Shown: positions 7,471 to 11,786 of the stretch, piece by piece | How positions within the stretch are numbered: the first letter of the stretch is position 1 | Layout: every line of letters begins with the position of its first letter | Assembly: GCA_004376055.2 (NCBI GenBank) | Contig: CP049016.1 | Coordinates: 2,418,001-2,482,000, forward strand | Origin: Nitrospirales bacterium LBB_01 | Lineage (GTDB): Bacteria > Nitrospirota > Thermodesulfovibrionia > Thermodesulfovibrionales > Magnetobacteriaceae | Length of the DNA stretch: 64,000 nt | Direction of reading: 5' to 3' | The notes under the pieces: generated by a model | The model's database searches: none | Seen by the model: the letters and a program-made list of their open reading frames with translations, nothing else | Told to the model about the DNA's origin: nothing | Made by a program: the position numbers and the translations under genes

Positions 7471-8541
7471 CTATTTCTTTTTACTGCCTATCTCGTTCCA
7501 ATACTCCTCTGGCATATCCTTACAGAGCATCAGTGCGCCGTTAGCGCCCGCAAAAAGAGTTTCCTCAATGCGTGTAACTTTGCCGTAACCGAGATGTTTT
7601 TTCATATAATCCTCGATTTCCTTTTTAAGCCCCGCTATTTGACTGCCGCCCCCGGCCAAATAGACGTTTTCCTTCAAAACTGCCTGAAACTCCGGATCAA
7701 ACGTTGCAATAAGTTTTCTTATTCCTTCTACTATCTCCGGCACAACCTCTCTGCAAGCCATCTTAAGCTCATTTGTGACGTCGTGCCTTTCCGGTTTCCC
7801 TTTCACCGGAATCTCTATAAAAATACTGTCCCCGTGTTCGGATATATTAGCATTTTCCTCTTTAAATCTCTTTACCATATTTACGGTGAAATTAGCGTCG
7901 CCGTGTTTTTTCATAATTAGGTCGTAAAACACCGAATCAACGAAATCTCCAGCCTTAGTCGTAGTAATCTGGTCCTCATCGGAGGGCATAGTGCCGTGCA
8001 TCCTGCATAAATCAACAGTCCCCGCTCCAATGTCAACAATCAGAACGTTGTTAAGGAGATTAAGCCCGTAAGCGACTGCAAACGGCTCAGAAACTATCAT
8101 CACATCGTCAAGAATACCTGAGGCAATTTCAAGCAGCACCTTTTTGTTTTTTCTGCTTGCCATAGCAGGCGCTCCCAGCACCCCTCTAACGATGAATTCA
8201 CCCTCAACATCGGTGCTGCCCTCTTTGGCTATATCTATCAGATGCCGCAACAGCTCCTTTGCCGCATCTATGGACTTCTGATACCCTGCGTCCTTTTCCG
8301 TCAGCTCATCTGTGTATTTAAGCATTCCCTTGTCAAATGGCCTAAAAAGCGTCACTGCCATCTTATTTCTTAAAGCATCGTCTCCAAAGGCAATATCTTT
8401 GCCAAGCAGCTTTTTAGATATTGCATCTTTGGGGAATCCCACATAACTTGACACAAAAGTTCTTATACCGTTATCGCAGGCGATAACGCTTCTGGATGTT
8501 CCCAAATCTATGCCGACGTTTAACACATGCTTGTCAGACAT
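7471..8541 (-). CDS. mamK: Magnetosome actin-like filament protein MamK
   Basis: This 356-residue actin-fold ATPase has the phosphate-1 motif VGIDLGTS (9-16), the connect-1 Glu in VSEPFAVAYGL (E152), phosphate-2 IVDIGAGTVDL (D170) and adenosine motif YLAGGGSQIAGL (about 294-305). Segments such as VGFPKDAISKKLLGK and the C-terminal PEEYWNEIGS match MamK (YWRQLG in Magnetospirillum). MamK polymerises into the filament that aligns magnetosomes into a chain. It follows the coiled-coil gene by 48 nt and is probably driven by the promoter at 9169-9197. Confidence 0.93.
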   Translation of the reverse strand: MSDKHVLNVGIDLGTSRSVIACDNGIRTFVSSYVGFPKDAISKKLLGKDIAFGDDALRNKMAVTLFRPFDKGMLKYTDELTEKDAGYQKSIDAAKELLRHLIDIAKEGSTDVEGEFIVRGVLGAPAMASRKNKKVLLEIASGILDDVMIVSEPFAVAYGLNLLNNVLIVDIGAGTVDLCRMHGTMPSDEDQITTTKAGDFVDSVFYDLIMKKHGDANFTVNMVKRFKEENANISEHGDSIFIEIPVKGKPERHDVTNELKMACREVVPEIVEGIRKLIATFDPEFQAVLKENVYLAGGGSQIAGLKKEIEDYMKKHLGYGKVTRIEETLFAGANGALMLCKDMPEEYWNEIGSKKK

Positions 8542-8589: not shown

Positions 8590-9105
8590 TCATTTCATCT
8601 CAGACCGCAGCTCTACATTTTCCATAACGATACTTTTCAAAAATGATTTCTTTGAATCCGCAATTCTCTTTTTAGGCTCAGCCGACTTGCCGCTCTTAGC
8701 GAGAGTTATGCCGTGTTTTTCAATGTAGGCGAGGCGTTTTTCAATTGCCTCAAGACGCTGTTCAATGCTTGAGAGGCGCTCAGAGCGTCTCTTTATCAGT
8801 TTCTCTATGTAGAGCAGGATTTCCTTGATTTCTTTAGATGCCTTACCGGTTAAGTCCTTAACAGGCCGTATGATGCTACTAACAGGGCCGGCTATGCCTT
8901 TAATTGGCACAACGATTTTAGCTATCGGCTCTCCTACCGCTTTACCGCCTCTTACAACATAGCTATACACAACCAGCACTGAGTACTCCATTGAAGCGTA
9001 AGTATAAAGCCAGGATTCGTTTAGTATCTCAACGCTGCCGGAGACTGATGAGTCTAACAGTTTTTTTAGATCTTTATAATCCACTTTCATATTAGGCACT
9101 TTCAT
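8590..9105 (-). CDS. Coiled-coil protein upstream of mamK
   Basis: This 171-residue protein has a central stretch of Val, Ile, Gly and Pro (about 60-90) that may touch membrane, then a long coiled-coil segment with heptads (LSSIEQRLEAIEKRLAYIEK at about 115-135) and a basic Ser/Lys tail. No enzymatic motif is seen. The first ATG at 9105 has a near-perfect AAGGAGG ribosome binding site. It is the first gene after a good sigma70-type promoter (9169-9197) and precedes mamK by 48 nt, so it may help position or regulate the MamK filament. Coiled-coil Mad proteins are known in similar clusters, but I cannot name which one. Confidence 0.78.
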   Translation of the reverse strand: MKVPNMKVDYKDLKKLLDSSVSGSVEILNESWLYTYASMEYSVLVVYSYVVRGGKAVGEPIAKIVVPIKGIAGPVSSIIRPVKDLTGKASKEIKEILLYIEKLIKRRSERLSSIEQRLEAIEKRLAYIEKHGITLAKSGKSAEPKKRIADSKKSFLKSIVMENVELRSEMK

Positions 9106-9168: not shown

Positions 9169-9197
9169 ATTCTACAAAAAACAAACAATAAAGTCAA
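9169..9197 (-). promoter_or_regulatory. Sigma70-type promoter before the coiled-coil gene and mamK
   Basis: On the minus strand a TTGACT -35 (9192-9197) and TAGAAT -10 (9169-9174) are separated by 17 nt. The transcript would start near 9162 and carry a leader of about 57 nt before the AAGGAGG site of the coiled-coil gene. This would split the magnetosome cluster into two transcription units. Confidence 0.7.
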
Positions 9198-9289
9198 GTA
9201 ATTTTTACTTAATTTATAATTATAATTTATATATACAGTATCTGCTTAATCACGGATTAGAACATACGCCGACGGATGATGTCAAGCAT

Positions 9290-10180
9290 TTATTTTGCGT
9301 AGCTCAGCACATTGGCTATAATGTCGGCAAATGAGGTAAGGACCTCCTCATCGGCAGTATCTCTCTTATGTCCCTCGCATACATAGACACAGATTACGCC
9401 AAATAGTTTGTTAGCCGCAACTATGGGCACACAGTAATGGCCATGGGGTGGTGCGTCTTTATTCAATTCGTGACGCTTATCAATATTGTCGGCAAACACT
9501 ATCTCCTTAGAGCCAGCGGCTATTCCGCAAAGGCACTTACCAAGTGTTACAGTGGTGCACTCCGGAGTTCCAATTGATGCGGCTATAACAAGCTCATCAG
9601 AGTCATCCAGAGCTAAAAAGATGACGCCCATTGTTTGAAGGAAAAGCCTTGGGATTGACGTTACAAGCCTAAGGGACTGCTCTAATTTTGCCTCAAAAGT
9701 TATCGGCTTTAAAAACACCTTTAATATCGTGTTTATTACCTTAACTCTTGCCTCCATTCTGTGTCTGTAAAGAGCCATGCTGACAGCCACAAGCAGGTCT
9801 CTGACAGCAAATGGTTTAACGATATAGCCATAAGGCTCTGTAATTCTTGCCCGCCCCAGAGTTTCAATATCTGTGTGAGCAGTTAGATATACGATTGGAA
9901 TGTTATATAGCTCCTCAATTTTAGCAGCACCCTCAATCCCATCCATTTTGCCTTCAAGTGTTATATCCATAAGCATAAGGTCAGGCGATAACTCTCCTGC
10001 TTTTTGTATTGCCTCTTCAGCGGTTGTGACAATATCAAGGACGTTATATCCGATTTTTTTTAACTTCATCTCTATATCGCGGGCAACAATTATCTCATCC
10101 TCAACAATGATGACCCTTATTGCAGTCTTGTTGTTGGATATTTCTGTTTCGTGTTCCAAAGGTTTACTACCGCTCCTCAC
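9290..10180 (-). CDS. Response regulator with C-terminal GAF domain in the magnetosome cluster
   Basis: Residues about 20-140 form a receiver domain with acidic pair (VEDE), phosphoacceptor Asp in LMLMDITLEG and Lys in YIVKPF. A linker helix follows, then a GAF domain (about 165-295) with CLCG and HGHYCVPI motifs. There is no DNA-binding output domain, so the protein probably signals by interaction or sensing. The start overlaps the 3' end of the actin-like gene by 14 nt, so the two are coupled. A closely similar GAF motif set occurs in the hybrid kinase near 23.2 kb, which raises the possibility of a shared ligand; that link is inference. Confidence 0.82.
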   Translation of the reverse strand: MRSGSKPLEHETEISNNKTAIRVIIVEDEIIVARDIEMKLKKIGYNVLDIVTTAEEAIQKAGELSPDLMLMDITLEGKMDGIEGAAKIEELYNIPIVYLTAHTDIETLGRARITEPYGYIVKPFAVRDLLVAVSMALYRHRMEARVKVINTILKVFLKPITFEAKLEQSLRLVTSIPRLFLQTMGVIFLALDDSDELVIAASIGTPECTTVTLGKCLCGIAAGSKEIVFADNIDKRHELNKDAPPHGHYCVPIVAANKLFGVICVYVCEGHKRDTADEEVLTSFADIIANVLSYAK

Positions 10181-11387
10181 TCATTGCCATGACAAGGGCG
10201 CCCTTAGAGGTGGCATTTAACGGATCCTTTGCCATTCTTATTTCTGAGATTTCAACAGGCATCCGCATGGCACTCAGCGCCTTTTCCAGTCTCTCCCTTA
10301 ACCCCTTAGGCATACTCGTTCCGCCGCTAAGCACTATCGGTATTGGGGCGGTAATTTTAGGCACCTTATCGGAGGACGATATCACCTGCTGAAGGCTCTG
10401 TACCAACGAATTAATTAAATCCATATAGTATATGTGAAGGGACATTTCTACCTTGTTTACTGGAAGGACTGACAGATCAAGCGCCTCCTCTTTGATTACT
10501 TTTATCTTGGTTGCCGATTCTTTTACATCTCTGCTTACCATCTCATCTATGTAATCGCCACCCTTTTGAATGCTGTATGTAATTACAGGCACGGATAAGT
10601 ATGACAAACAAACATTACACATGCCCCCGCCCATGCTTATGCCAATTCCAGTAAAGTTACTGTCGGCAAGCTCTGACATCACCACTGCCAAACCCTCGTT
10701 TATCGGCACCGGAGTAAACCCAAGACTTTCAAAAAACATCTTTAATATTGACTGATGCCCTATTGACATCACCGTAGCCCCCACTGGGTCGCCTGGTACG
10801 CTGTAACAGAGAATCTCGCCAAACTTCTTTGGTTTTTGCACAACGGTTTTAATTATTGACTGCATGAGGATTATGCCCTCGTTTTCTTTGGAGCTAAGAA
10901 ATCCTCTTTCCATCGGCCTTCGTGTATTGTTGTTAAACATGTTTGCGAAATTTTCCGCCGAGTAGCCGATTATATAGTATTGCTTATCAAATTCAATGAA
11001 AGTAACCTCATTTTTATTGAGAATTGATTTTGTAAATCTTGACTGAGGGATTGTAAAGAAAGCATTAACCTGTTTAACGATGTGGATACTGTTTCCCTTA
11101 TTTTGTGCCAAAACGATGTTGCTTGTGCCGATGTCCATTCCAATAGGGCCAAATGGGCTTTCAGGAGCGGCGCCCGGCTCTTTGTCTGAGGTAACCGTGG
11201 TTTTTTCGGTTGTCCTGTAAGCCGACTCAATCCGCACATCCGACACCGGTCTGTCGTATGCCGGCGGCGGTGGCGGTGCACTGAATGAGGGCGCAGGGGG
11301 GTGAGCCTGCGCATCCTGTGATTCCATATCACCCAGCCTTGATTTTAATCGTTCTATCTCATATTGCAGATCGTTTTCCTCTGACAT
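10167..11387 (-). CDS. mad28: Second actin-like protein of the magnetosome cluster (Mad28-like)
   Basis: The 406-residue protein starts with a short charged helix and a Pro-rich linker (about 25-55), then an actin-like domain with phosphate-1 GMDIGTSNIVLAQ, connect Glu in PINEGLAV and adenosine motif IVLSGGTSMPKGL. The phosphate-2 motif reads ISMGGGMCNV, with Ser where MamK has the conserved Asp, so nucleotide hydrolysis may be altered. Mad28 is the actin-like protein of Desulfobacterota and Nitrospirota clusters and the best match. The ATG at 11387 is preferred over the upstream GTG (11414) because a GGGAGG site lies 7 nt ahead and a promoter maps just upstream. First gene of the cluster. 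Confidence 0.8.
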   Translation of the reverse strand: MSEENDLQYEIERLKSRLGDMESQDAQAHPPAPSFSAPPPPPAYDRPVSDVRIESAYRTTEKTTVTSDKEPGAAPESPFGPIGMDIGTSNIVLAQNKGNSIHIVKQVNAFFTIPQSRFTKSILNKNEVTFIEFDKQYYIIGYSAENFANMFNNNTRRPMERGFLSSKENEGIILMQSIIKTVVQKPKKFGEILCYSVPGDPVGATVMSIGHQSILKMFFESLGFTPVPINEGLAVVMSELADSNFTGIGISMGGGMCNVCLSYLSVPVITYSIQKGGDYIDEMVSRDVKESATKIKVIKEEALDLSVLPVNKVEMSLHIYYMDLINSLVQSLQQVISSSDKVPKITAPIPIVLSGGTSMPKGLRERLEKALSAMRMPVEISEIRMAKDPLNATSKGALVMAMSEER

Positions 11388-11416
11388 GACAATGCCTCCC
11401 TTTTTTAATATCACCT

Positions 11417-11444
11417 AATATATGGGGGGGGGCTGGCGAGTCAA
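11417..11444 (-). promoter_or_regulatory. Candidate promoter of the magnetosome cluster with C9 tract in the spacer
   Basis: On the minus strand TTGACT (11439-11444) and TATATT (11417-11422) are 16 nt apart, and the spacer contains nine consecutive C (11424-11432 as G on the plus strand). The predicted start near 11410 leaves a leader of about 23 nt with the GGGAGG site of the actin-like gene. Changes in tract length would move the spacer away from or towards 17 nt. Confidence 0.6.
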
Positions 11445-11529
11445 TGACAAAAGTCACAATTTTGCAAAAAATATTTTTTTAATACTTTAACTCAAAAAAA
11501 GTATCATCCACACAGAAAAAAATAACTGC

Positions 11530-11786
11530 TTATTGAGTTAGCTCCAGCAGAGGGGTTTTGTCAGCAAATAATATATTTAAAAGGACTGGATTCCCGCTCG
11601 GAGGCGGGAATGACAAAGGGAAGAGGCGGGAATGACAAAGGTGGAGATGCTTTTTTCTTTCTGTTATTCCTTTCTTTTTGTTATTCCTTTCTTTTTGTTA
11701 TTCCTTTCTTTTTGTCATTCCTTTCTTTTTGTCATTCCTTTCTTTTCTTGTCATTCCTGCGAAGGCAGGAATCCAGTTTTTTGTTA
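11530..11786. repeat. Composite intergenic hairpin repeat, copy A
   Basis: Copy A starts with TTATTGAGTTA, has the conserved arm TCAGCAAATAATATATTTAA and ACTGGATTCCCGCTCGGAGG, and ends with a facing hairpin arm CTGCGAAGGCAGGAATCCAG. Between the arms are five or so tandem 17-bp units ATTCCTTTCTTTTTGTY (about 11667-11750). Copies B, C and D lie at 32385, 56011 and 63413. It holds no credible gene. Confidence 0.85.

Follow-up and report, generated by a model that had tools for sequence, protein, structure and literature searches.

The run of nine C residues at positions 11424-11432 of the window, the 64,000-nucleotide stretch of the Ca. Magnetomonas plexicatena LBB01 chromosome analyzed here, lies in the spacer of what is probably a real sigma-70-type promoter on the minus strand (11417-11444). 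The reading that we favor, with a probability of roughly 60%, is that this promoter drives a short accessory unit composed of mad28-2 and a receiver/GAF gene and that the core magnetosome genes use promoters of their own, termed P1 and P2. LBB01 (CP049016) has been described as possessing a circular 3.27-Mb chromosome with 42.0% G+C (PMC9376291); the sequence searched was one contig of 3,273,455 bases with 42% G+C, assembled from MGI and Nanopore R9.4.1 reads of magnetically enriched, MDA-amplified environmental DNA. The features of the promoter region, in which the elements upstream of the genes were read from the sequence, and of the unit behind it are as follows:

11445..11456, no strand assigned: perfect inverted repeat TGAC-TTTT-GTCA, immediately next to the -35 element
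11439..11444, minus strand: -35 element TTGACT of the mad28-2 promoter, 5/6 consensus
11423..11438, minus strand: 16-nt spacer CGCCAGCCCCCCCCCA, with C9 at 11424-11432
11417..11422, minus strand: -10 element TATATT of the mad28-2 promoter, 5/6 consensus
11395..11400, minus strand: ribosome binding site GGGAGG, 7 nt ahead of the mad28-2 ATG
10167..11387, minus strand: mad28-2, encoding an actin-like protein of the Mad28/Volactin family (406 residues; PF25216, 289 bits)
9290..10180, minus strand: gene of a protein with receiver and GAF domains (PF00072, PF13185, PF01590), overlapping the end of mad28-2

The initial annotation had described a TTGACT/TATATT pair with a 16-nt spacer containing nine C, a matching ribosome binding site and a gene about 30 nt away. 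This description was borne out: the coordinates are exact on the minus strand, GGGAGG is present, and the promoter TTGACT-16-TATATT ends 29 nt ahead of the mad28-2 ATG (11387-11385). Of the genes, 17% have a site matching the consensus at 10 or more of 12 positions within the 100 nt ahead of them, as opposed to 2.5% after shuffling, which corresponds to an enrichment of about sevenfold. In a post hoc test, a C9 inserted at a random intergenic position fell wholly inside the spacer of such a site in 0.32% of cases on the same strand and in 0.57% on either strand, and it is because chance so seldom (0.3-0.6%) puts a C9 inside the spacer of so good a promoter that the promoter is probably real. 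We infer that the promoter is active, where transcription would begin and how spacer length would act. The inverted repeat adjoining the -35 element is a possible, if speculative, regulator site.

Of the 50 promoters predicted in the LBB01 genome samples, that of mad28-2 carries the longest homopolymer in its spacer, and the G+C of this spacer (0.875; mean 0.31) exceeds that of all others. The census of spacer lengths in these promoters, which covered 16-18 nt only, yielded 18 nt in 31 promoters, 17 nt in 17 and 16 nt in 2. Slippage in the tract would change the distance between the -35 and -10 elements and thereby how much Mad28-2 and receiver/GAF protein is made. Given the preference of LBB01 promoters for spacers of 17-18 nt, C10 and C11 are predicted to be stronger than C9, such that C9 (16 nt) would be a weaker state and C8 and C12 would be nearly off. 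This prediction differs from the switching scheme of 15, 16 and 17 nt that had been proposed earlier.

The ORF at 10167-11387 is equated with mad28 through its Volactin-family match, as it encodes an actin-like protein, distinct from MamK (469 bits), in a MamK-bearing magnetotactic bacterium. Two mad28 genes have been reported for LBB01 (PMC9376291), and a near-identical copy with 95% identity to mad28-2 is located at genome positions 405907-407127. The dN/dS between the copies is about 0.04, with 33% of the third codon positions differing, so both look functional; mad28-2 is under purifying selection. The copy at 405907-407127 and the orthologs in the sister species G001 and G002 have a common upstream region (TTGATTTTACCGATAA...) that is unrelated to that of mad28-2. 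A dispersed repeat present at about 40 places in the genome closely precedes the promoter region of mad28-2 (window positions 11516-11690), and a similar repeat-end sequence occurs upstream of the other copy as well. A third gene of the Volactin type, at genome positions 2069586-2070581, is more distant (53% identical), and relatives occur throughout the family.

In Desulfovibrio (Solidesulfovibrio) magneticus RS-1, deletion of mad28 causes misplacement of the chains without a significant change in the number of magnetosomes per cell (PMC12748827), and Mad28 follows the curvature of the cell (PMC12713370); it positions the chains along that curvature (PMC12748827, PMC12713370). The LBB01 protein bears the same name and, as in RS-1, is encoded together with MamK; unlike RS-1, LBB01 has two near-identical copies of the gene, at separate loci and with unrelated upstream regions. 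By analogy, mad28-2, an accessory, duplicated gene, probably positions the magnetosome chain. The first gene behind the promoter, originally taken for a gene of the magnetosome cluster, is the second mad28 rather than a core formation gene. For the receiver/GAF protein encoded at 9290-10180, no output domain was matched.

The published main magnetosome cluster ends with mamK and man1 (PMC9376291), to which the following features belong:

9256..9285, minus strand: P1 of man1, TTGACA-18-TCTAAT, aligned and conserved in G001, G002 and G003
9169..9197, minus strand: P2 of man1, TTGACT-17-TAGAAT, aligned and conserved in G001, G002 and G003
8590..9105, minus strand: man1, adjoining mamK as in PMC9376291, with an ortholog in three sister species
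7471..8541, minus strand: mamK (NF040964, 469 bits, above the cut-off)

All four species of the genus keep P1 and P2 directly upstream of man1, including those that have lost mad28-2 or its neighbor. At the G001 locus the receiver/GAF gene is mostly lost and only a scrap is left; at the G002 locus mad28 is absent and the receiver/GAF gene is reduced to its C-terminal part; at the G003 locus mad28 is a start-less remnant of 30 codons. Judged from these remnants, the unit of mad28-2 and the receiver/GAF gene is decaying in the sister species. Since P1 and P2 are kept whether or not the upstream unit is intact, the core genes seem to keep promoters of their own, and P1 and P2 are probably those of the man1-mamK-mam genes. 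The C9 promoter is separated from man1 by mad28-2, the receiver/GAF gene and the conserved promoter-like sites P1 and P2. The interval from the receiver/GAF gene to man1 contains no clear terminator, and some read-through from the C9 promoter into man1 is therefore possible. According to the reading proposed here, the sigma-70-type promoter at 11417-11444, the C9 of which may well have arisen by chance, would transcribe mad28-2 and the overlapping receiver/GAF gene, and the man1-mamK-mam genes would be transcribed from P1 and P2 (9285-9169), to which upstream transcription would add no more than read-through.

In Magnetospirillum gryphiswaldense, removal of the first mamAB promoter silenced only the first gene (PMC8547445). 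Like the C9 promoter, it lies upstream of a run of magnetosome genes with further internal promoters; unlike the C9 promoter, it contains no homopolymer, has mamH as its first gene and belongs to a distant organism (PMC8547445). In view of this result, of the RS-1 mad28 deletion and of the promoters that the core genes appear to have, a switch in the C9 tract would affect chain placement at most, an effect that would in part be covered by the other mad28 copy, and would leave magnetosome formation unaffected. Magnetosome formation is thus probably not under the control of the tract, and the question moves to whether chain positioning is. The reading of an accessory unit is supported by the sevenfold enrichment of promoter sites upstream of genes and by the alignment of P1 and P2 despite the losses upstream of them. 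Against it, P1 and P2 are putative promoters recognized by sequence conservation, read-through from the C9 promoter could matter given the lack of a clear terminator, and the function of Mad28 is taken from RS-1, a distant species, and could matter more in the Nitrospirota. Of the interpretation offered by the initial annotation, the plausible sigma-70 promoter, the ribosome binding site and the poly-C spacer are supported; the promoter of the magnetosome cluster and the magnetosome switch are not, as the gene served is the accessory mad28-2, the core genes have genus-conserved P1 and P2, and loss of mad28 in RS-1 leaves the crystal number unchanged.

Whether the accessory unit is in addition phase-variable is a separate matter. 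It would require that C9 slips in nature, with lengths of C8-C11 in a population switching mad28-2 and the receiver/GAF gene such that sister cells place their chains differently, which we regard as rather unlikely. The architecture is that of porA, opc and fetA of Neisseria, in which a homopolymer lies between the -35 and -10 elements, as stated in a passage of PMC2791445 that cites Sarkari 1994 and van der Ende 1995. In both cases a G/C homopolymer is contained wholly in a sigma-70-type spacer upstream of a gene, and slippage by one base changes the spacing. The Neisseria genes encode surface antigens with measurable variation, in contrast to mad28-2, the product of which is cytoplasmic, which is duplicated and whose C9 tract has been seen in one assembled LBB01 genome and is absent from the sister species. 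A literature search combining magnetosomes with phase variation yielded nothing relevant. Were the tract to vary, slippage would act, unusually, on a gene of the bacterial cytoskeleton, and a gene for organelle positioning would be phase-variable in a lineage whose probable surface proteins also have poly-C promoters.

Those promoters were found in Ca. Magnetominusculus. Genomes G016 and G018 contain three homologous promoters of the form TTGACATTTA-C9 or C10-ATG-TATAAT/TACAAT:

G018:C121:18434-18461: poly-C promoter, C9, spacer 16 nt
G016:C35:2898-2926: poly-C promoter, C10, spacer 17 nt
G016:C188:18088-18115: poly-C promoter, C9, spacer 16 nt

The proteins encoded behind them share a signal-peptide-like N-terminus, and two of the three carry InlB-type repeats. 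By sequence, the three are strong candidates for phase-variable surface-protein promoters, the classical setting of phase variation in the Neisseria systems covered in that passage of PMC2791445. They belong to the same bacterial family as the mad28-2 promoter and resemble it in their poly-C tract (C9/C10) and in spacers of 16-17 nt. They differ from it in that TTGACA and TATAAT/TACAAT are closer to the consensus, in that several occur per genome and in that they serve large, repeat-rich proteins with starts that resemble signal peptides; nor are they homologous in sequence to the mad28-2 promoter. Their presence renders phase variation at mad28-2 more plausible, and the recurrence of the poly-C architecture in Ca. 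Magnetominusculus suggests that homopolymer tuning of promoters exists in magnetotactic Nitrospirota. A C8 promoter-like site was also observed in G016 (C61:23335-23363), ahead of a large protein with nine InlB-type repeats.

Besides the Ca. Magnetominusculus promoters, phase variation is favored by the location of a rare tract exactly inside a promoter spacer, by the purifying selection on mad28-2 and by the sister species G001, in which the mad28-2 promoter (TTGACT-18-GATAAT) carries T14 in its spacer, one of only two A/T runs of at least 12 bases in that genome; the mad28 remnant of G003 has T10. The weight of these T tracts is reduced by the sister genomes taken together. All four A/T runs of at least 12 bases in G001, G002 and G003 lie in spacers of TTGAC-type promoter-like sites, which makes an A/T tract in the spacer look like a feature that promoters of the genus have in general. 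One 12-base A/T run has the identical length in G002 and G003, and the LBB01 version of this promoter has a different sequence and a spacer of similar length (18 vs 17 nt). Poly-C itself is absent from the mad28 promoters of relatives: near the start of the other mad28 genes with a readable upstream region, no G/C run of at least 6 was found, except for a G6 located 362 nt away. Homopolymers upstream of mad28 are only weakly enriched across the family (p 0.0055, from small, hand-set counts), with p rising to 0.087 without one case that lies outside a spacer. Further points against phase variation are the near-identical second copy of the gene, the mismatch repair genes mutS1 and mutL, both present in the LBB01 genome, and a number of G/C tracts in the genome that is as expected by chance.

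This last number also bears on the alternative that the poly-C has arisen by chance and has no promoter role, mad28-2 being transcribed from elsewhere and the tract being a passive feature of a leader or intergenic region, an alternative that we consider improbable. The whole-genome search revealed only two G/C runs of at least 9 in the 3.27 Mb of LBB01, one a G9 at genome positions 959617-959625 that codes for Gly-Gly-Gly early in an mnmG-like gene and the other, the sole non-coding one, being the C9 at 11424-11432. Second- to fifth-order Markov models built on 464 kb of LBB01 genome samples predict 1.8-3.3 such runs per genome; as this range covers the two observed, long G/C runs are not enriched and give no sign of a genome of contingency loci. 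A tract without a role is also compatible with its lack of conservation and with the rarity of 16-nt spacers in LBB01 (2/50). It is difficult to reconcile with two good hexamers that flank the tract at promoter spacing and are followed by a ribosome binding site; the only other promoter candidate within 170 nt upstream is weak (8/12).

A role for the C-run in a leader RNA, through base pairing to the G-rich ribosome binding site, is very improbable. The minimum-energy fold of the tract-bearing leader fragment does pair CCC with the GGG of the binding site, but it is no better than the folds of shuffled sequences (z 0.0 and -1.1), on which ground the pairing was rejected, and transcription from further upstream would have to rely on the weak candidate. 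A switch of the whole cluster, by which magnetosome formation would become phase-variable as originally proposed, is hardly credible: the genes all run in one direction with no clear terminator between them, but the core genes possess genus-conserved promoters of their own, the sister species can do without the unit downstream of the C9 promoter, the cluster of M. gryphiswaldense is not silenced by loss of its first promoter, and the crystal number of RS-1 is not changed by loss of mad28.

A search of the family with the loose pattern TTGA-C7-TA gave 18 matches compared with 14 for the reversed control and hence no overall enrichment, so that only individual near-consensus matches are informative. 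Those in G001:C11 and G008:C68 were rejected, as they fall in a region coding for a dihydropteroate synthase-like protein. Full trust cannot be placed in long homopolymers of draft genomes, as exemplified by the G11 runs of G001 that break a flagellar-hook-like frame and probably an lgt-like frame, through either slippage or assembly error. In G002, a C8 run is located in the region encoding the proline-rich linker of mad28 (L142:4145-4152), where slippage would shift the frame.
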